NCBI RefSeq assembly: GCF_947241125.1
Contig: NZ_OX365700.1
Location: 310,001-374,000 of the forward strand
Direction of reading: 5' to 3'
Length of the DNA stretch: 64,000 bases
Origin: Nitrospira tepida
GTDB lineage: Bacteria > Nitrospirota > Nitrospiria > Nitrospirales > Nitrospiraceae
The notes beneath the pieces are model-generated. The model was given only the letters and a program-made list of their open reading frames with translations, did no database searches and was not told where the DNA came from. The first letter of the stretch is position 1; each line of letters starts with the position of its first letter. Below are positions 42,263 to 58,260 of the stretch, piece after piece. The position numbers were made by a program, and so were the translations under genes.

Positions 42263-42433
42263 TGTCCTCCTCCTTTCAAAGGACGAAGATCTTCCCTCCG
42301 CCCCTGTTGCAATGGTGAACGACCCGTGACCGGGCGCGTTGGCGATTCCTTCGGTCATGAGGATAGACCGTCCTCGGTCGGTCTGAGGACTAGGCAGAAC
42401 CCAAGGCTGGACCGGGGACCGAGACATTGTGAG

Positions 42434-42755
42434 GCATGGTCATTTCGAAGCCTCGGGCCATGCGATCGAGACCACGAACAACCGCATGGAAATGACGGCG
42501 GCCATCGAGGCCTTGAAGACCCTGCCTGCTTCACAGACGGTTCTGCTCCATTCCGACTCCCAGCTCCTCATCAAGACCATGACGCTGGCCTGGAAGCGAA
42601 AGAAGAACCATGATCTCTGGGCCGAGTTGGATCGGCTGGCCGCCCTCCACCGGGTCAGTTGGCAATGGATACGCGGGCACAACGGCCATCCGGAAAACGA
42701 AGCCTGCGACCGGCTCCCTCAAGACGCCGCTTCGGTTGCCAGTGGCTTGCGCTTG
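42434..42755 (+). pseudogene. 5'-truncated rnhA duplicate
   Basis: From about 42443 the DNA is a diverged copy of the intact rnhA at 43417-43851. It encodes EASGHAIETTNNRMEMTAAI, HSDSQLLIKTMTLAWKRKKN and WIRGHNGHPENEACDRL. The first ~35 residues, including the first catalytic Asp, are missing. The end also changes (RLPQDAASVASGL). It lies 5' of a toxin-antitoxin module that separates it from the intact gene. Confidence 0.85.
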
Positions 42756-42941
42756 TCTAGGTGCCAGGTGCGGATAGGCGACGGACGGTCGCATCAGTCC
42801 CGGCGGGCGGCGAGACCGGCGCCATATCACCACTCAGTTGAACTGCCCGATCCGCGTTGCTATAACGTGACAGGACAAGCTCTGTGTGACCATCTGCCTC
42901 GTCCTTAACTGTGATCTCTCTTGCGCAAAAGGGAGTGAATC

Positions 42942-43142
42942 ATGGCGACAGCATTACGAATGGAAGTGAATCCCAGCAGCATTATCAAGGCTGTGAAAAG
43001 GATGAAAAAGAAAGAACGGCAGATTTTTATCGAGGACTTAATCGCGGCGACTTCTCCGGAATACCTGCGGAGCATCAGGGAAGCTCGCTGGGACTATAAG
43101 GCCGGAAGAGTGAAGGATCACGATGAAGTCTTTGGCCGATGA
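42942..43142 (+). CDS. Antitoxin of a RelBE-like module
   Basis: This 66-residue protein has a helix-rich N terminus (SSIIKAVKRMKKKERQIF) and a C-terminal EARWDYKAGRVKDHDEVF. That tail is typical of short antitoxins that wrap a RelE-fold toxin. The stop overlaps the toxin start as ATGA (43139-43142). It appears intact. The two partial/complete rnhA copies flank the module. Confidence 0.75.
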   Translation: MATALRMEVNPSSIIKAVKRMKKKERQIFIEDLIAATSPEYLRSIREARWDYKAGRVKDHDEVFGR

Positions 43143-43392
43143 TCTATCGGCTGACCTACACGCAACGAGCAATCCGAGACATCGACAGACTCGATCCCTC
43201 CATCAAGCAACGAATCGGAAAACCCTCCTCCGTTACGAAGAGAATCCGCTGGCGCACGCTGAATCCTTGAAGGACTCTGATCTTGGCTCCTACCGGTTCC
43301 GTATCGGTGATTATCGGATCATCTTTGATCTCCAAGGGAAGAAAATCGTCGTCTTGCGGGTCGGCCATCGAGGAGAGATCTACAAGAGGTAA
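43139..43392 (+). pseudogene. RelE/ParE-type toxin with single-base frameshift
   Basis: ATG 43139 begins MIYRLTYTQRAIRDIDRLDP, then SIKQRIGK, a RelE start. In the next frame the rest continues as TLLRYEENPLAHAESLKDSD, YRFRIGDYRIIFDL and VLRVGHRGEIYKR, the full toxin end. The frames join at an AAAA run (43219-43222), where one missing A restores a continuous 85-residue protein. As written the toxin is inactive. A sequencing error or a slippery site are alternatives. Confidence 0.8.
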
Positions 43393-43416
43393 CGCCACCG
43401 CTTCTCCCATAAAAGC

Positions 43417-43851
43417 ATGAACCACCCTATCCTGATCTGGACCGACGGCAGTTGTCTCGGGAATCCCGGCCCGGGCGGCTGGGCCTATATTATCGAGATC
43501 GGTGAAGAGCGGACCGAAGCCTCGGGCCATGCGATCGAGACCACGAACAACCGCATGGAAATGACGGCGGCCATCGAGGCCTTGAAGAGCCTGTCTGCGT
43601 CCCGCATGGTCGTGCTCCATTCCGACTCCCAGCTCCTGATTAAAACCATGACCCTGGGCTGGAAGCGGAAAAAGAACCATGATCTCTGGGCCGAGCTGGA
43701 TCGGCTCGCCGCCCTCCACCGGGTCAGTTGGCAGTGGGTACGCGGGCACAACGGCCATCCGGAGAACGAAGCCTGCGACGTTCTCGCGCAGCGGGCCGCT
43801 TCCATTGCCGGCGGCTTGGGAGGGGGCCAGGCGCAAGGAATGAGCCGGTAA
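43417..43851 (+). CDS. rnhA: Ribonuclease HI
   Basis: This 144-residue enzyme degrades RNA in RNA-DNA hybrids. The DEDD metal site is complete: Asp in WTDGSCLGNPGPGGWA, Glu in RMEMTAAIEAL, Asp in LHSDSQ and the final Asp in NEACDVLA. The handle region KTMTLGWKRKKNHDLW and WVRGHNGHPENE are typical. A truncated duplicate lies about 1 kb upstream on the same strand. Confidence 0.93.
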   Translation: MNHPILIWTDGSCLGNPGPGGWAYIIEIGEERTEASGHAIETTNNRMEMTAAIEALKSLSASRMVVLHSDSQLLIKTMTLGWKRKKNHDLWAELDRLAALHRVSWQWVRGHNGHPENEACDVLAQRAASIAGGLGGGQAQGMSR

Positions 43852-47796: not shown

Positions 47797-48720
47797 CTAG
47801 CGAGGCGCAGACGATTGGGCAGACCGCACGCGTTCCAAGAACCGGTCCAGCGAGTCCAGATCCTCCAGCACGACCAGCCCTTCCTCCTCGAAAATCTCCT
47901 TGACGGCCGAGAGGCCGGCTCCTCCCAACCCGACCGGACAAAGCGGCTTGATCTTGTGGGCCAGCGCCTTGGCCAGGGCGTGAAGCTCGTCATCCGGACC
48001 GCCCAACGTCATCGAGAGCAGCACCAGGGCCGGCTGCACGTCAAGGCACAAGGCCGACAGGTCGTCGATCGGCGTGTTGGGGCCTAAGTAGATCACCCGG
48101 AATCCTCGGACGGCGCAGTGGTAGGCGACGGTCTGCGCGCCGAGTTCGTGCGTCTCCTTCGGAGGACAGGCGACGACGACCTTCGGGCCATGATCCGGCG
48201 GCGCCAATTGATTCATCACGGAGAAGAGCTTCTGCTGCACGACCTTGCTGACGTAATGTTCGACGGCCACGCTAAGCCTCCCCTCATGCCATAACTCCCC
48301 GACGCGCTGCTGGAGCGGGATCAGCATCCCGTGGAGCGCTTCGTCAAACGGGACGATGGCGACCGCTCCGTTCAGCTTCCGCTCAAAGCTCGTCTTGTCC
48401 AACGGATCGAGCGACTGAATCAGTTGTTCGATCAACCTTGCATAGGGATTCGAGTCCGGAGAGCGCGCCGGCAAGGCCGATTGGCGCGCACGCGCGAGCA
48501 ATTCATCCCGGCCCAGTTCCGCCAAATCCCCGATCGAGTATCCCCGCTCCTGCTCCTGCTTCAAAAAACGAAGCAGCAACACGTCTTCGTCTGAATAATT
48601 GCGATAACGGTTGGCCCCCCGGATCGGTTTCAACAACCCATAACGCCTCTCCCAGACGCGAATCACGTCCTTGGTGAGACCGGTGAGTTTCGCAACTCTA
48701 TGAATTCTATGGGTATTCAT
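47797..48720 (-). CDS. carH: CarH-type B12-dependent photoreceptor and MerR-family repressor
   Basis: This 307-residue protein has an N-terminal MerR-type HTH (HRVAKLTGLTKDVIRVWERR, residues 7-26). A helical bundle (about 95-170) and a C-terminal cobalamin domain (about 178-300) follow. The CarH photosensor residues align: Trp144-x9-Glu154-His155 (WHEGRLSVAVEH), His145 right after the Trp (like His132 of Thermus CarH), and the lower Co ligand His191 in KETHELG. Known CarH tetramers repress in the dark with adenosylcobalamin and fall apart in light. It diverges from the photoprotection genes, which it likely controls. An ATG at 48732 is an alternative start. Confidence 0.9.
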   Translation of the reverse strand: MNTHRIHRVAKLTGLTKDVIRVWERRYGLLKPIRGANRYRNYSDEDVLLLRFLKQEQERGYSIGDLAELGRDELLARARQSALPARSPDSNPYARLIEQLIQSLDPLDKTSFERKLNGAVAIVPFDEALHGMLIPLQQRVGELWHEGRLSVAVEHYVSKVVQQKLFSVMNQLAPPDHGPKVVVACPPKETHELGAQTVAYHCAVRGFRVIYLGPNTPIDDLSALCLDVQPALVLLSMTLGGPDDELHALAKALAHKIKPLCPVGLGGAGLSAVKEIFEEEGLVVLEDLDSLDRFLERVRSAQSSAPR

Positions 48721-48745
48721 AATGCAACCCATGATAGCACAGTGC

Positions 48746-48827
48746 GTCCAATGTTTGTAGAATATTTTTTATATCAACTATTGACACATTGGACAAATAC
48801 CGTTATACATTAGACACAACATTGGAC
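48746..48827 (+). promoter_or_regulatory. Promoter with CarH-operator-like repeats
   Basis: A near-consensus promoter, TTGACA (48781-48786), 17-base spacer, TATACA (48804-48809), points to the plus-strand operon. Boxes of ACAT(T)(G/A)GAC occur at 48786-48794, 48807-48815 and 48819-48827, with one inverted (GTCCAATGT) at 48746-48754. They overlap the -35/spacer, the -10/start and the start-proximal DNA. The inverted box lies between this promoter and the regulator gene. This layout suits repression and autoregulation by the divergent CarH-like protein. Confidence 0.7.
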
Positions 48828-48862
48828 ATACCATAGGCCAAACGATCAAGGAGGTGATGACC

Positions 48863-49198
48863 GTGGCGACAGCAAGGACGAGACAGGCCGATCGAGCAAC
48901 CCCGATCCAACCATCCGCGCTCCGCCCTGCGACGATTCAAGAGTGTGTGCGGTGCGGTGGATTGTTGGTGATCGACCACTGCACGGACCTGATGGACGGC
49001 ACAGGCCGGTTGGAGTTCACGGCCCTACGCTGCGTGCAGTGCGGCGACGTCATCGATCCGGTGATTCTTCGGAATCGCGTCACCCAAGGGACCAAGCAGG
49101 CCTCGGTCCCCTCCGGCTTGCTGACTGATCCAGCCGGCGTCGCCTTCCGCGTCAGTGCCGGTCGATCGGGACAGTATGCAACAGCCATGTTCTCGTAG
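48863..49198 (+). CDS. Two-CxxC zinc-ribbon-like protein, first gene of the light-regulated series
   Basis: This 111-residue protein has CVRC and CVQC pairs about 30 residues apart, followed by GDVIDPVILRNR, and is paralogous to the protein at 1563-1790. AAGGAGG at 48848-48854 best fits GTG 48863 (eight bases), not the nearer ATG 48857 or GTG 48854. It follows the CarH-controlled promoter directly. Its N-terminal 25 residues and C-terminal tail are not in the paralogue. Its role is unknown; metal binding is likely. Confidence 0.75.
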   Translation: MATARTRQADRATPIQPSALRPATIQECVRCGGLLVIDHCTDLMDGTGRLEFTALRCVQCGDVIDPVILRNRVTQGTKQASVPSGLLTDPAGVAFRVSAGRSGQYATAMFS

Positions 49199-49236
49199 AT
49201 TTCACACACCACCATTCAACAGGAAGGATGACAGCC

Positions 49237-50190
49237 ATGCGGAGGACCACGGTGCTTACGGCAGCCATCGCGAGTTTAGCTTTGATGACAGGCTCGGGAA
49301 TCGCTTTCGGAGCGGGCGAGAAGGAAAAGGACATGGCGACGATCCCCGGCGGGGAATTCACCATGGGCGGCAACGAACATTCAGATGAGCCCCGGCATCA
49401 GGTCGTGCTCGACTCGTTTCTGATCGATAAGTTCGAGGTCTCGAACGCGCGATTCAAAGAATTCATGAAAGCGACCGGTCATCCGGCTCCCGCCTACTGG
49501 GACGATCCTCGATTGAGCAAGCCCAACCAGCCGGTGGTGGGCGTGAGCTGGCATGATGCGACTGCCTTCTGTAAGTGGGAAGGAAAGCGGTTGCCAACCG
49601 AAGCCGAATGGGAACGGGCTGCTAAAGGACCCTCGGGCGACAACCATTATCCCTGGGGGCATTCGCTGGATCCGTCCAAGGCCAACTATGGCCAGAACGT
49701 CGGGCGGACCGAGCCGGTCGATGCCTATCCCGAAGGGGTGAACGGCTTCGGGCTCTATAACATGGCCGGCAATGTGTTCGAGTGGGTTTCAGATTGGTAT
49801 GACCCCCACTCGTACAAGAGGAGCAATGCCCTAAATCCACAGGGCGCCGACAAGGGGTACAACTTCGCCAACCAGGGCCCGGTAAAGGTCCTACGAGGCG
49901 GCTCATGGCTGGCACCGGAGACCTCTCTCCACACCACACACCGGTTCTGGAACCAGCCGGAGAACAATTCCTATGGGGTCGGACTGGGATTCCGTTGCGC
50001 CAAGAGCGCCGCTCCGATCGTGCATGCGGATCAGGCAGGCCGGGACGCATTCATCCAGGCCCTGATCAGCATGGGCATTGAGAAGTACCCGGATGCTCTG
50101 GTGTCGATCGAACAAGCGCTCAAGGCAGATCCGAGCAACAAGGAATATGCCGCGACCCGCGACCTCATCAAGAAGAGCCTGAAGAAATAA
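49237..50190 (+). CDS. Secreted FGE-sulfatase-domain protein 1 with C-terminal helical repeat
   Basis: This 317-residue protein has a signal peptide (LTAAIASLALMTGSGIAFGA) and a formylglycine-generating-enzyme-like domain: IPGGEFTMGGNEHSDEPRH, DKFEVSNARFKEFM, RLPTEAEWERAAKG, MAGNVFEWVSDWYD, VLRGGSWL and GLGFRCAKS. The active-site cysteine pair of true FGE is absent (the region reads LHTTHRFWNQ), so oxidase activity is unlikely. The last 50 residues look like a TPR-type helix pair (YPDALVSIEQALKADPSNKE). ATG 49237 fits AGGAAGG nine bases upstream. Confidence 0.85.
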   Translation: MRRTTVLTAAIASLALMTGSGIAFGAGEKEKDMATIPGGEFTMGGNEHSDEPRHQVVLDSFLIDKFEVSNARFKEFMKATGHPAPAYWDDPRLSKPNQPVVGVSWHDATAFCKWEGKRLPTEAEWERAAKGPSGDNHYPWGHSLDPSKANYGQNVGRTEPVDAYPEGVNGFGLYNMAGNVFEWVSDWYDPHSYKRSNALNPQGADKGYNFANQGPVKVLRGGSWLAPETSLHTTHRFWNQPENNSYGVGLGFRCAKSAAPIVHADQAGRDAFIQALISMGIEKYPDALVSIEQALKADPSNKEYAATRDLIKKSLKK

Positions 50191-50196
50191 TGGTTT

Positions 50197-50230
50197 CGGC
50201 GGCAGCCGCGTCCCGTCGCGGCTGCCGCCG
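50197..50230 (+). terminator. 14-bp stem hairpin between the FGE-like genes
   Basis: CGGCGGCAGCCGCG pairs perfectly with CGCGGCTGCCGCCG across a six-base loop, seven bases past the first FGE-like gene. No U-run follows. It may act as an attenuator or protect the upstream mRNA from decay. Confidence 0.5.
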
Positions 50231-50270
50231 GTATGCGGGTCAATCTTCGCCATCTGGCCGGAGGGATGCC

Positions 50271-51326
50271 ATGGAGAGAATAACGAACACGATCCTTATC
50301 GCTGCCGTCCTGCTCGCGGTCGCAGTCAGCGTCGCGGACGGAGCCGACTCGATGATTCCGGACGACATGGTGTATGTCGCCCAGGGGCCATCGATCATGG
50401 GTCTCGACAGAGCGCAGCAACCGGAAACCAATGCCAAACTGACGCCCTACCAGAAACGTATGGCGACACCCTGGTCGGCGGATGCCTTCCACGATGAAGT
50501 TCCGGCCCATCTGGTCATGCTGGATGCCTTTCTGATCGATAAGTACGAGGTCTCCAATGGGAACTATGGCGAGTTCATGAATCAGACAGGCCACCCCGCA
50601 CCGGCCTATTGGGACGATCCGCGCCTCAACAAGTCGGAGCAGCCGGTAGTCGGTGTCAATTGGTACGATGCCAAGGCCTACTGCGAATGGCGAGGCAAGC
50701 GGCTTCCGACCGAGGCCGAATGGGAGAAGGCGGCGCGCGGCCCCTCCGGGAACCTCTATCCCTGGGGCGACCAATTCGATGAAGCCCGCGCCAACTTCGG
50801 GCGCCGGGCCGAAGCGACGGCTCCGGTCACAGCCTACCCCGAAGGGGCCAGCTATTACGGCGCCCTCAACATGGCCGGCAACGTCTTCGAGTGGGTGGCC
50901 GACTGGTACGACCCCCAGTACTACGGCCGGTTCGACACCTCCGTGAATCCGACCGGGCCGGACAAGCCCATCTGGCTTGGCGGGACCGGCACCTATGTGG
51001 ATCGTCTGACCGTCGGAGAAAAGCGCGTCATCCGCGGCGGCTCCTGGATCGCGCCGGAAGCGACGGTACGGTCCACGCACCGGTTCTGGAATCATCCCTT
51101 GAATAACAGCTACGGCGTCGGTCTCGGGTTCCGCTGCACACAGCAGGCGCCGCAGCAGATTGAACAACAGATTCGCCAGGCCTCCATCGAAGCCTTGGTT
51201 CTCATGGGTAAGGAACAGTTCGAGGAGGCCAGGCAGTCGGTCGCGCGCGGATTGCGGATCGATCCGGTGAACCCGGAGCTGTTGGATCTGGACCGGTTGA
51301 TTCATAAGTCACTGAAACGCGGTTAG
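50271..51326 (+). CDS. Secreted FGE-sulfatase-domain protein 2 with C-terminal helical repeat
   Basis: This 351-residue paralogue of the preceding gene has a signal peptide (ILIAAVLLAVAVSVADG). The FGE-like core shows DKYEVSNGNYGEFMNQTGHP, RLPTEAEWEKAARGP, MAGNVFEWVADWYDPQYYG, VIRGGSWIAPEA and GLGFRCTQQ. It has a TPR-like tail (EEARQSVARGLRIDPVNPE). Again the catalytic Cys pair is replaced (VRSTHRFWNH). The strong similarity, including the GHPAPAYWDDPRL block, shows a recent tandem duplication. GGAGGG precedes the ATG. Confidence 0.85.
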   Translation: MERITNTILIAAVLLAVAVSVADGADSMIPDDMVYVAQGPSIMGLDRAQQPETNAKLTPYQKRMATPWSADAFHDEVPAHLVMLDAFLIDKYEVSNGNYGEFMNQTGHPAPAYWDDPRLNKSEQPVVGVNWYDAKAYCEWRGKRLPTEAEWEKAARGPSGNLYPWGDQFDEARANFGRRAEATAPVTAYPEGASYYGALNMAGNVFEWVADWYDPQYYGRFDTSVNPTGPDKPIWLGGTGTYVDRLTVGEKRVIRGGSWIAPEATVRSTHRFWNHPLNNSYGVGLGFRCTQQAPQQIEQQIRQASIEALVLMGKEQFEEARQSVARGLRIDPVNPELLDLDRLIHKSLKRG

Positions 51327-51358
51327 TCTCACAGGCCGGCATAGGCGGGAGCACACCC

Positions 51359-51748
51359 ATGAGCAAAATCCAGTCCCCTTCCACACCAACTTTCTCGTTC
51401 GGCCTTCTGTTGATCGCGGTCGCGGCGTGGTTCGTCCAGCCTGTGCATGGCGGTCCGATCGATCCGGGCGCACATCCCTTTCCGGAGGCGGCGCAGGCCG
51501 TTCATGAAGCCGAACATGCCGTCGACCAGGCCTGGGAGACCTATCACAAGGCGGCCTTGGGGGGGACGATCGCGTCGCCGGCCGTGCAGGCGGAGATCGA
51601 ACAGCATTTGCATGAAGCCCGGGCGTTGGTGCCGCAAGCTCGGTCGGCGGCGGAACGCGGCGATACAAGGCAAGTCCAACGATTGGTGGACGCCATTACG
51701 ATCCATACTGATGCGGCAATCATGGGAAGCAGGGAGCACAAGCGATGA
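51359..51748 (+). CDS. Small secreted helical protein
   Basis: This 129-residue protein has a signal peptide (SFGLLLIAVAAWFVQPVHG). The mature part is rich in helix and histidine (AAQAVHEAEHAVDQAWETYH, IEQHLHEARALVPQARSA). The pattern suggests a small periplasmic helical bundle, possibly metal-binding. Its stop overlaps the start of the third FGE-like gene (ATGA), so the two are co-translated. No family is recognised. Confidence 0.7.
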   Translation: MSKIQSPSTPTFSFGLLLIAVAAWFVQPVHGGPIDPGAHPFPEAAQAVHEAEHAVDQAWETYHKAALGGTIASPAVQAEIEQHLHEARALVPQARSAAERGDTRQVQRLVDAITIHTDAAIMGSREHKR

Positions 51749-52590
51749 TACTGATGCGGAGAGCTGTAGCGATCATGATCTGGAACGTTCTCCTCTGGAC
51801 GGTCGGCGTACTGGCGTTGGTCCCGGCCACGTTTCCGGTGGCGGCGGCGACCCGGACTATCGAGCCGGACCCCGTGCCGATGGTGATGATCCCCGCTGGT
51901 CCGTTCAAGATGGGAAGTGAGGACGGCAAGGGGCGAGAGGACGAGCGGCCTCAGCGGGACATTTACTTGGATACATTCGCCATCGACCAGGTAGAAGTGA
52001 CCAACGAGCGCTACCTGGCCTTTGTAAAGGCGACCGGGCATCGCAATCCCCCGAACCCTTACGGGTCCGGCTTTTTGCATGACGCCACCGGGATCGAGCA
52101 ACTCCCGGTCGTGCAGGTGACCTGGTATGACGCCAAGGCCTACTGCGCCTGGGCGAAGAAGCGCTTGCCGACGGAAGCGGAGTGGGAAAAGGCGGCGCGT
52201 GGCACGGATGGGCGTTTGTATCCCTGGGGCAATGACCCGCCCTCTCCGAAACGCGCCAACTTCGATCGCGAATGGGAGGGAGAGAAGACCATGCATCCGG
52301 TGGGTGCGCTGTCGGCCGGCGACTCGCCCTACGGGGTCAAGGACATGTCCGGAAACGCGCGGGAATGGGTCGAAGATTGGTACGATCCGGACTACTACAA
52401 GCACGCTCCCGACCGCAATCCCAAGGGACCTGCCAAAGGAGTCGTGCGGAGCATCAGAGGCGGGTCCTGGCACAGCCCAATGTGGGATATCGGCGTCGCC
52501 TCCCGGGGACGTGGAGGGTTTGCGCTCCAGACGCACGGCACCGGCTTTCGCTGCGCAAAGAGCGTCGAAGGGCCAGACGGCGCGAAATAA
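51745..52590 (+). CDS. Secreted FGE-sulfatase-domain protein 3
   Basis: This 281-residue protein has a signal or anchor segment (IWNVLLWTVGVLALVPATF) and an FGE-like domain with VMIPAGPFKMGSEDGKGRED, DQVEVTNERYLAFV, RLPTEAEWEKAARGTDG, MSGNAREWVEDWYD, IRGGSWHSPM and GTGFRCAKS. It lacks the C-terminal TPR-like tail of its two paralogues and is more diverged. The catalytic Cys pair is missing here too (DIGVASRGRGGF). It may bind a periplasmic partner or ligand instead of oxidising cysteine. Confidence 0.85.
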   Translation: MILMRRAVAIMIWNVLLWTVGVLALVPATFPVAAATRTIEPDPVPMVMIPAGPFKMGSEDGKGREDERPQRDIYLDTFAIDQVEVTNERYLAFVKATGHRNPPNPYGSGFLHDATGIEQLPVVQVTWYDAKAYCAWAKKRLPTEAEWEKAARGTDGRLYPWGNDPPSPKRANFDREWEGEKTMHPVGALSAGDSPYGVKDMSGNAREWVEDWYDPDYYKHAPDRNPKGPAKGVVRSIRGGSWHSPMWDIGVASRGRGGFALQTHGTGFRCAKSVEGPDGAK

Positions 52591-52600
52591 GGAGGAGGCC

Positions 52601-53569
52601 ATGCACATCGTCGTGACCGGGGGGACCGGCTTTATCGGGTCAGCGCTGAGTGAGCAGTTGGCGGCTCAGGGCCATCGGGTCACTCTACTCACCCGCGATA
52701 CCAACCGGGCCTGGCGCCGATTGGGGAATCTCTGCGAATACATGGAATGGGACGGGATCTCGCCCGGTACCTGGGAGACCTCGTTCGAAGAGGTCGAGGC
52801 CGTCGTTAATTTGGCCGGCGCCTCGATTGCGGATGAACGCTGGACGGAATCCCGCAAACGGCATCTGATCGAGAACCGCGTCTCGGCCACTCGATTGGTC
52901 GTCCAGGCGCTTGGTCGCCGCGCGAGCCGTCCTGTGGTTCTGATCAGCGGGTCCGGTGTCGGCTATTACGGGGCCAGCGATGATCGGTTGCTCGATGAGC
53001 GGGCGGAACGGGGATCGGGATTCCTTGCGGACCTGTCGGAAGCCTGGGAGGCCGAGGCCTATCGGGCCGAGGCGCTCGGCGTGCGGGTCGTGCGGCTTCG
53101 TATCGGGATGGTGCTCGAGCGGGATGGAGGCGCGCTGCCGCGCATGCTGCTGCCCTTCAAACTGTTTGTGGGAGGCCCGATCTCTCCCGGCGACCAGTGG
53201 GTGTCGTGGATTCATCGGCAGGATCTGATCGGGTTGATCCAATGGGCGATAACGAATCACACGATCTCCGGCCCCTTGAATGCGGTGGCTCCGGGAGCCG
53301 TGACGATGGCCGAGTTCTGCCGCCTGCTCGGTCGAGCGATGGGCCGGCCGTCCTGGCTTTCGGTCCCAGGATTCGCCGTGAAGTTGGCGCTGGGCGAAAT
53401 GGGCACGTTGCTCACGACAGGACAGAGGGTCATCCCGATGGTCGCCCTGTCCTCCGGGTTTCCCTTTGTCTACCCGGACCTGGAATCGGCCCTGCGCGCC
53501 ATCCTGATCGGCAGGACCGGCGCCGGCCCTTCGGTCCCGGACCGTCGGCAGACCGAGGTGTCGGCATAA
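52601..53569 (+). CDS. TIGR01777-family NAD-dependent epimerase (SDR39U-like)
   Basis: This 322-residue extended SDR protein has the Rossmann motif VTGGTGFIGSALSEQL, VVNLAGASIADERWT, the family's WTESRKRHLIENRVSATRLV, SGSGVGYYGASDD and WVSWIHRQDLIGLI. The TIGR01777 group is often found beside photolyase and DUF523 genes in light-induced loci, as here. AAGGAGGAGG lies before the ATG. The substrate is unknown. Confidence 0.92.
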   Translation: MHIVVTGGTGFIGSALSEQLAAQGHRVTLLTRDTNRAWRRLGNLCEYMEWDGISPGTWETSFEEVEAVVNLAGASIADERWTESRKRHLIENRVSATRLVVQALGRRASRPVVLISGSGVGYYGASDDRLLDERAERGSGFLADLSEAWEAEAYRAEALGVRVVRLRIGMVLERDGGALPRMLLPFKLFVGGPISPGDQWVSWIHRQDLIGLIQWAITNHTISGPLNAVAPGAVTMAEFCRLLGRAMGRPSWLSVPGFAVKLALGEMGTLLTTGQRVIPMVALSSGFPFVYPDLESALRAILIGRTGAGPSVPDRRQTEVSA

Positions 53570-55805: not shown

Positions 55806-56015
55806 ATGAGACAGACGGCTACTGTGGAAGGGGGCACCGCGACTCCGCACGGCGCCTCCCAACGGGGTGAGTGGGTCGCTGCGTTGGGCTCACAGTGGGT
55901 CCACTCCCCCGTCCACGGATTGGAAGAGTGTCCCAGACCGGGCGGTCATGGCGCAAGCCGACGGGACATGAAAGCAGCCGGCCGGATCTCGATTCGGCGA
56001 TTGAAAGGATCATGA
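55806..56015 (+). CDS. Possible small leader ORF before photolyase
   Basis: A 69-codon frame (MRQTATVEGGTATPHGASQR start) ends with a TGA that overlaps the tandem ATGATG of the photolyase start. Its ribosome site is weak and there is no homology. The overlap hints at coupling, but it may be chance. No other gene fits this 210-base gap. Confidence 0.3.
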   Translation: MRQTATVEGGTATPHGASQRGEWVAALGSQWVHSPVHGLEECPRPGGHGASRRDMKAAGRISIRRLKGS

Positions 56016-57307
56016 TGTCGAGAGCGATCGTGTGGTTTCGGCGGGATCTCCGGGTGCAGGATCACCCCGCCCTGGCGAATGCGCTCCGAGACTATGAGGA
56101 GGTCATCCCGCTCTTCGTGTTCGACGAGCCGTTGCTCCGGTCGCAGGTCTTTGGCGCCGGGTGCGTCCGGTTCATGCTGGATTGTCTGGCCGAACTGCAA
56201 CGCTCGCTGGCCGGATCCGGGCTCTCATTGCGATGGCGCCATGGCGATCCTCTGGAAGACGTTCCGAAGCTGGCGCGCGACATGCGGGCCGACGCGGTGC
56301 TGTGGAATCGGGACTATGATCCGGTCGCTGTGGAACGGGATCATCTCGTCATGCGGGCCTTGGCCAAGCAAGGGGTCGCGGTACGGACCTTCAAGGACCA
56401 TATGGTCTTCGAGCCGGATGAGATCCGCACAGCGGACGGCGGGGGCTTCCAACGCTACGGCGCCTATCGGGCGAAATGGTGGGCCAAGTGGCGGGCCGCT
56501 GCCCCGGAATCGGCGACCCTGTCTCCTTCAAGACAGTCAGCGGTTCCCTCCAAAGAGATCAAACCGCTCCCCTCCGCTTCAGATTTGGGATACCAGACTA
56601 TCGTGCCGGCGATTCCCGGCGGAGAACGGCAGGCCCTCGCTCGACTGCGACTGTTTTTGGACGGCCCGATTCACCGCTATGGCATCGGACGCAACCGGCC
56701 GGCACAGGACGAGACCTCCGTGCTCTCTCCGCACTTCCGATTCGGGACTTTGTCGCCGCGCTCGGCAGTCCGGCAGGCGCTGCGAACCTTGAGCGATCGG
56801 GACAGTCAACGAAACGGCGCATCCCGGTCAGATGTCGTGACCTGGATCGACGAATTGGTCTGGCGGGATTTTTTTCATCAGGTGCTGGCCAACCATCCGC
56901 ATGTAGCCGGGGAGCCGTTCCGGGCGGCGGCGGTCGCCCCTCGCCGTCCCGACGGGCCGGAGGCCCGCTGGTTGTTTCAGGCCTGGCGCGAGGGGCGAAC
57001 CGGCTATCCGCTGGTGGACGCCGGCATGCGTCAACTGAACCAGACCGGCTGGATGCACAATCGCGTGCGCATGGTGGCGGCGTCGTTCCTTGCGAAGGAT
57101 CTGCGGCTGGACTGGCGTTGGGGCGAGCGCTACTTCATGAACCGGCTGCTCGATGCGGACCTGGCCGTGAACAACGGCAACTGGCAATGGTGCGCCTCGA
57201 CCGGCACGGACGCCATGCCTGGCTATCGGATCTTCAACCCGGCGCTACAGGGGAAAAAGTTTGATCCGGCCGGCGAGTACGTGGCCGAAGCGGCGAGGAC
57301 GGCATGA
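56015..57307 (+). CDS. phr: Deoxyribodipyrimidine photolyase
   Basis: This 430-residue flavoprotein repairs UV-induced pyrimidine dimers with blue light. The N-terminal antenna domain begins IVWFRRDLRVQDHPALANAL. The FAD domain shows FRFGTLSPRSAVRQAL, WIDELVWRDFFHQVLA, RTGYPLVDAGMRQLNQTGWM, HNRVRMVAASFLAKDLRLDW and NNGNWQWCASTGTDAMPGYR. The protein ends at LQGKKFDPAGEYVAEAARTA, about 40 residues before the usual C terminus, with its stop overlapping the next start (ATGA). Core flavin contacts remain, so it may still work. Confidence 0.9.
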   Translation: MSRAIVWFRRDLRVQDHPALANALRDYEEVIPLFVFDEPLLRSQVFGAGCVRFMLDCLAELQRSLAGSGLSLRWRHGDPLEDVPKLARDMRADAVLWNRDYDPVAVERDHLVMRALAKQGVAVRTFKDHMVFEPDEIRTADGGGFQRYGAYRAKWWAKWRAAAPESATLSPSRQSAVPSKEIKPLPSASDLGYQTIVPAIPGGERQALARLRLFLDGPIHRYGIGRNRPAQDETSVLSPHFRFGTLSPRSAVRQALRTLSDRDSQRNGASRSDVVTWIDELVWRDFFHQVLANHPHVAGEPFRAAAVAPRRPDGPEARWLFQAWREGRTGYPLVDAGMRQLNQTGWMHNRVRMVAASFLAKDLRLDWRWGERYFMNRLLDADLAVNNGNWQWCASTGTDAMPGYRIFNPALQGKKFDPAGEYVAEAARTA

Positions 57308-58260
57308 ACCGGGAGCATCCCATTAAGCTCGGCATCAGCCGCTGCCTGCTCGGAGACGAGGTCCGGTTCGACGGCGGGCACAAGCGGGATCACTTTCTGG
57401 TCGAGGTGCTGGGCCGCTATGTCGAATGGGTGCCGGTCTGTCCCGAGGTGGAGGCGGGGTTGGGCACGCCACGGGAGGCGATGCGGTTGGTGGGCGAGCC
57501 GGAACAGCCCCGGTTGATCACGATCCGAACGAACCGGGACCTGACCAGGCCGCTGGCAGAGTTCTCTCACCGGCGGGTTCGGGAGCTGGAAGCGGAGGAT
57601 CTGTGCGGATACGTGTTCAAGAAGGACTCGCCGAGCTGCGGCATCGAGCGGGTGAGGCTCTACAACAAGCACGGGATGCCGGGCCGGGCCGGGGTGGGGG
57701 TCTTCGCCCGGGCGTTCCGCGAGCATTTTCCGCTGACGCCAATCGAGGAGGAGGGACGGCTCTGCGATCCGTTGATCCGCGAAAACTTCATCGAGCGGGT
57801 GTTTGCCTACGACCGGTGGCGGAGCCTGCTGTCGGCCGGCGGCACCCGGCGAGCCCTGGTGAGCTTTCACACGATCCACAAGTATCTCCTCCTGGCGCAC
57901 AGCGCGACCCACTATCGGAGTTTGGGCCAGATCGTTGCGCAGGCCGACCGCTACCGGCCGAAGGAACTGCCTCTGCGATATGGAAAGCTGTTCATGGAGG
58001 CCCTGTCCGTCAAGGCGACGGTCCGCAAGCATGTGAACGTGCTGCATCACCTGGTGGGACACTTCAAAGCCCACCTCGATCGGGCTGAAAAGGCGGAGTT
58101 GTTGAGTCTCATCGACGATTATCATCGCGGCCTGGTCCCGTTGGTCGTGCCGATGACGCTCGTCAAACATTACGTGGCCCGATTCGAGGTGCCTTACGTC
58201 CGGGACCAGATCTATCTGAATCCGCATCCCAAGGAACTCATGTTGAGGAACCATGTATAG
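57304..58260 (+). CDS. DUF523-DUF1722 (YbgA-like) fusion protein
   Basis: This 318-residue two-domain protein has DUF523 (about 8-150: LGISRCLLGDEVRFDGGHKR, WVPVCPEVEAGLGTPREAMR, FKKDSPSCGIERV) with conserved Cys residues. DUF1722 follows (about 190-305: LVSFHTIHKYLLLAHSATHY, HVNVLHHLVGHF, IYLNPHPKELMLRNHV). Such fusions are a known companion of photolyase genes in several bacteria. It overlaps the photolyase stop, so the pair is coupled. The biochemical role is still undefined. Confidence 0.93.
   Translation: MNREHPIKLGISRCLLGDEVRFDGGHKRDHFLVEVLGRYVEWVPVCPEVEAGLGTPREAMRLVGEPEQPRLITIRTNRDLTRPLAEFSHRRVRELEAEDLCGYVFKKDSPSCGIERVRLYNKHGMPGRAGVGVFARAFREHFPLTPIEEEGRLCDPLIRENFIERVFAYDRWRSLLSAGGTRRALVSFHTIHKYLLLAHSATHYRSLGQIVAQADRYRPKELPLRYGKLFMEALSVKATVRKHVNVLHHLVGHFKAHLDRAEKAELLSLIDDYHRGLVPLVVPMTLVKHYVARFEVPYVRDQIYLNPHPKELMLRNHV

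Follow-up and report, generated by a model that had tools for sequence, protein, structure and literature searches.

Which protein reads the repeated boxes lying over the promoter between a MerR-type regulator gene and the operon that diverges from it, and what would be switched there? The window, i.e. the whole stretch of 64,000 nucleotides analysed here, covers positions 310001-374000 of a 4.73-Mb single-contig genome. Pattern searches of it confirmed the three direct boxes and one inverted box of a preliminary description, with ACATTGGAC at 48786-48794 (+), 48819-48827 (+) and 48746-48754 (-) and ACATTAGAC as the middle box at 48807-48815 (+). Counted from their first bases at 48786, 48807 and 48819, the direct boxes have the spacings of 21 and 12 bp (33 bp in sum) described before. 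The TTGACA-17-TATACA promoter reported beneath them is also present with its 17-bp spacer; its -35 matches the consensus perfectly and its -10 at only four of six positions. Because of this -10, which lacks the usual final T, a strict promoter scan reported no promoter here. The -10 is weak and its position putative, and in the upstream regions of relatives its first two positions are conserved (T 1.00 and A 0.96). We regard 48744-48829 as very likely a divergent operator-promoter region for CarH (Table 1), at which a light-damage operon would be repressed in the dark and released by light, with carH regulating itself. We infer the dependence on adenosylcobalamin and on light, the binding of CarH, the direction of regulation and the transcription starts.

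Table 1. Predicted elements of the operator-promoter region and the genes on either side of it (positions in the window)
Feature	Position	Strand	Remarks
carH, MerR helix-turn-helix and B12-binding photoreceptor-repressor (predicted), 307 aa	47797..48720	-	domains, motifs, alignment
Extended -10 of carH (probable), TGC-TATCAT	48731..48736	-	TATACT or TATAAT in relatives
Inverted box ACATTGGACGC, pseudo-repeat with ACG for ACA	48744..48754	-	11 bp past the preceding repeat
carH-side CarH repeat (predicted), ATATTCTACAA	48755..48765	-	TCTACA at the place of the relatives' carH -35 TTGACA
Operon -35 TTGACA, itself a TnnACA	48781..48786	+	TTGACN in upstream regions of relatives (73 of 74)
CarH repeat 1 (predicted), ACATTGGACAA, nnnnTnnACAn	48786..48796	+	57 of 73 regions have TnnACA here
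Degenerate pseudo-repeat interval, 10 bp, without in-phase TnnACA	48797..48806	+	low conservation
Operon -10 TATACA, overlapped by repeat 2	48804..48809	+	17-bp spacer from -35
CarH repeat 2 (predicted), ACATTAGACAC	48807..48817	+	TnnACA at +30 or +31 from -35 in 61 of 73 regions
CarH repeat 3 (predicted), ACATTGGACAT, near the predicted start site	48819..48829	+	11, 12 or 22 bp past repeat 2 in relatives
First operon gene, small CxxC zinc-ribbon-like protein	48863..49198	+	start GTG 48863
Three proteins with FGE-sulfatase domains, plus one small protein	49228..52590	+	
TIGR01777-family oxidoreductase	52601..53569	+	
DNA photolyase	56012..57307	+	
RudS-like protein, 2-thiouracil desulfurase domain and DUF1722	57304..58260	+	domains; PMC11417400

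The published CarH operator is built of 11-bp direct repeats nnnnTnnACAn (PMC9304148), given in an earlier form as nAnnTnnACAn (PMC8156234). All three direct boxes, which share one orientation on the + strand and overlap the -35/-10 region, fit nnnnTnnACAn, and the position-2 A of the earlier form is not matched by them. The boxes are very probably a CarH-type operator. The former suggestion that they resemble no published CarH operator does not hold for the core, since the boxes fit TnnACA (PMC9304148). ACATTGGACAT extends this core in a lineage-specific way.

The regulator itself appears to be a good class I CarH/LitR protein. MerR_1, B12-binding_2 and B12-binding all scored above cut-off in the domain search, and the Thermus CarH structure 5c8d aligns with the product over nearly its full length (E 3.5e-33), a sequence similarity by which the CarH fold is indicated. 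The recognition helix RxWERRY is intact as RVWERRY (RVWERRF is also frequent in relatives), and so are the photosensory motif Wx9EH (WHEGRLSVAVEH, with His after Trp), present in 72 of 73 distinct proteins, and the B12 motif D/ExHx2G-x41-SxT/V-x22-27-GG, here ETHELG-x41-SMT-x27-GG and with Ala in place of its Gly in many relatives. W144, E154, H155 and H191 are invariant in an alignment of 25 sequences. With 144.5 bits the protein does not reach the 400-bit cut-off of the NCBIfam CarH model, which is a naming threshold and not a biochemical feature; because the score lies so far under it, the regulator seems to be a distant, divergent CarH member. It is the only full CarH-type protein of the genome, two other matches being limited to the MerR part. 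The start codon is most probably at 48720 rather than 48732, since residue 4 or 5 of the long ORF is where most alignments with relatives start.

The genes behind the main promoter point in the same direction. From the zinc-ribbon to the RudS gene we infer a single transcript. The first product matched no Pfam or NCBIfam family, and a second copy of its gene lies further along the operon in many relatives. Among 51 long carH loci, the zinc-ribbon gene is found in 47, the three FGE-like genes in 33, 46 and 50 and the TIGR01777 oxidoreductase in 40, while the distal photolyase (29) and RudS (19) have counts bounded by the ends of the sequence stretches taken. Of 104 genomes, 100 have the first FGE gene together with carH. 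The presence of three paralogues with FGE-sulfatase domains in a single light-damage operon is conserved across Nitrospirota. RudS is frequently located in light-responsive operons (PMC11417400). A class I CPD photolyase is reported for most reference Nitrospira (PMC9239080), in passages that do not take up its regulation. Elsewhere in the window (42429-43851), two adjacent RNase HI-like reading frames share near-identical stretches, the first of which seems truncated or frameshifted.

It is conceivable that the same protein occupies the boxes in response to B12 level or a partner protein instead of light, making it a repressor for B12 status or stress. Its B12 domains would suit such a role, Nitrospira marina needs external B12 (PMC8115632), and the class II LitR of Pseudomonas responds to a LOV partner instead of B12 (PMC9758184). 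However, the intact Wx9EH motif, with its His after Trp, and the occurrence of photolyase and RudS among the regulated genes make this unlikely, and a light-responsive CarH is preferred.

A single-protein query gave no match in a first scan of the named genomes; an alignment-based search of them for carH gave 76 loci, from Nitrospira and other Nitrospirota, including Ca. Nitrospira defluvii and N. moscoviensis (cultured). The phylogenetic footprint comprised 74 distinct upstream regions of Nitrospiraceae and other Nitrospirota including the window's own, 73 of them anchored on the TTGAC of the -35. In these 73 regions, TnnACA is found at +9 (57), +30/31 (61), +41/42 (20) and +52/53 (49) from the -35, with an additional peak at +23/24, where the -10 region and the second box overlap, and almost none elsewhere. 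Columns within the boxes mostly hold 1-2 bits and those of the spacers mostly less, even though nearly all of the CarH proteins share only 44-69% identity with that of the window; hence shared ancestry alone is insufficient to explain the boxes. Across the 74 upstream regions the boxes are held in near-fixed register and the spacers vary.

In the window the spacing of the direct boxes (21 and 12 bp) departs from a strict 11-bp tandem, and the operon -35 lies 9 bp from repeat 1 as against 11 in register. Relatives have 11-bp steps at +30/+41/+52, and the carH-side pair of the window is separated by exactly 11 bp. Among the listed spacings, a gap of 21 bp between repeats 1 and 2 goes with a TATACA-type element at +23 and a gap of 22 bp with one at +24. 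The promoter spacer seems to pull against the 11-bp unit of the repeats. In several more distant relatives (L048, L053, L063 and L073) the -35 is itself a repeat, 11 bp ahead of the next, which is also the arrangement of published operators.

Box pairs and carH also occur together at the level of genomes (Fisher p about 1e-16). The pairs are present in 90 of 109 genomes with carH, and a reversed control pattern gave 6 matches in 175 genomes. Among 152 pairs counted in genomes G000-G127, 117 lie no more than 250 bp upstream of carH, 12 more precede the FGE gene on contigs without carH or at a second promoter, and the last 23 are scattered, seven of them in one genome. A reading in which CarH is a mere neighbour and the boxes serve some other regulator, or a classic MerR activator that untwists a long-spacer promoter, is very improbable given this co-occurrence, even if the weak -10 (4/6) resembles those of activated promoters. 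MerR activators bind a palindrome in a promoter spacer of 19-20 bp, but the spacer here is 17 bp and the boxes are direct repeats fitting CarH.

Several other arrangements were observed among the relatives. In four loci (L062, L064, L065 and L071) the CarH promoter faces a gene for a small CxxCH haem-motif protein (NapC/NrfH-like by eye), and the genome of one of these (G070, locus L062) has a second operator ahead of the zinc-ribbon operon. Two or three neighbouring carH paralogues per genome are found in G053 (L039/L065), G065 (L043/L064), G060 and G077, and several such clustered paralogues have box pairs of their own. One Nitrospira-type carH (L128, 57% identity to that of the window) is on a probably misbinned contig of a Pyrinomonadaceae MAG.

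Within the window, the boxes are clustered far beyond chance. Their total is not above expectation (8 observed, 10.06 expected), and neither four boxes in 82 bp nor three same-strand boxes in 42 bp arose in any of 1000 first-order Markov simulations, which gave a largest cluster of three, once, and took no account of the 38% GC of the site against 62% for the window. Although that total and that AT-rich composition, outside the simulation model, would suit chance clustering in intergenic DNA, this explanation is scarcely credible in view of the simulations and is refuted by the in-register conservation in 74 upstream regions. The preliminary description had held that boxes equally frequent elsewhere would speak against an operator; in the whole genome, ACATTNRAC pairs 0-25 bp apart are found at this locus only, as two overlapping pairs, so this check did not refute the operator. 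This relaxed pattern replaced exact ACATTGGAC pairs: with a gap of up to 15 bp there are none in the whole genome, the middle box being ACATTAGAC. A search for TTGACACATTGGACA with up to two mismatches gave two further matches in the genome; the one of these two that was read, apparently in coding sequence, was set aside as chance. Since the pairs are confined to the locus and TTGACACATTGGACA has so few matches elsewhere, the predicted regulon consists of one operator region, as far as these pattern searches reach. Three TnnACA in strict 11-bp tandem occur nowhere in the genome, so this operator would be overlooked by a scan that took the published spacing literally.

The inverted box requires a different reading from that first given. 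It is indeed present towards the regulator gene, but it is no extra copy for the operon promoter: it lies within the spacer of carH's own promoter, where each of its columns exceeds 1.1 bits across 67 relatives. In most of these relatives the inverted strand reads TTTGACAAACATTGGAC. In the sampled relatives, TATACT or TATAAT follows TTGACA by about 17-18 bp on the carH strand, and the two likely form the carH promoter, with two TnnACA exactly 11 bp apart. This -35 is changed to TCTACA in the window and to TCAACA in its closest relative, in both only at the free positions of TnnACA. These two cases hint that CarH binding may have preserved the carH-side repeat as the promoter moved to an extended -10. 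The inverted box and the second repeat in the carH promoter would imply autoregulation of carH. The predicted carH transcription start is only a few bases upstream of 48720; hence its mRNA would be nearly leaderless.

Taken together, the regulator motifs, the 74 conserved upstream regions and the light-damage operon support the operator of a multimeric CarH-like repressor that had been proposed. In the dark, CarH with adenosylcobalamin would multimerise and place its DNA-binding domains on the 11-bp nnnnTnnACAn repeats. With the three + repeats occupied, the start site of the light-damage operon and its -35/-10 region would be covered; occupation of the two opposite-strand repeats would cover the carH promoter and lead to autoregulation. 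Light would then cleave the Co-C bond and dissociate the multimer, allowing RNA polymerase to transcribe the zinc-ribbon, FGE-like, oxidoreductase, photolyase and RudS genes.

More broadly, we somewhat favour the view that a B12 light switch controls one photolyase/RudS/FGE-like/zinc-ribbon operon in much of the Nitrospiraceae, including cultured nitrite oxidisers, through an operator phased by compromise (21 bp with spacer 17, 22 bp with spacer 18). If such phasing is true, CarH would bind repeats out of strict tandem, and these lineages would offer a natural series of shifted-phase operators useful for studying how CarH reads DNA. Light inhibits nitrifiers (PMC9239080), and the locus would provide a concrete light-response circuit with a defined target promoter for cultured Nitrospira strains; the operon genes of unknown function are probably tied to light damage. 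A literature search, with most subscription journals outside it, found no earlier account of a CarH-type operator or of light sensing in Nitrospira.

The CarH operators of Thermus thermophilus and Bacillus megaterium have three or four tandem 11-bp repeats (PMC9304148, PMC8156234) and share with the Nitrospira region the TnnACA core, head-to-tail copies over the -35/-10 and a B12-MerR regulator. Unlike in these operators (11 + 11), steps of 21 and 12 bp separate the copies in the window and the operon -35 is out of register; the extended consensus ACATTGGACAT is also distinct, and the predicted target is a light-damage operon not known to hold carotenoid genes. Myxococcal operators (DR/dr) likewise mix perfect and degenerate repeats, and those of Sorangiineae are also located at divergent gene pairs (PMC9304148), but myxococcal operators have carotenoid gene targets and phased 11-bp units. 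A light-repair operon with photolyase, RudS and a MerR-type dark repressor is also known for the class II LitR proteins of Pseudomonas (PplR/PmlR; PMC9758184, PMC11417400), which differ in having no full B12 domain, a LOV partner and T(G/A)TACA sites. The CarH-type switch as such is hence already known, and what seems new, as far as the literature searched reaches, is its predicted occurrence in the Nitrospira lineage.
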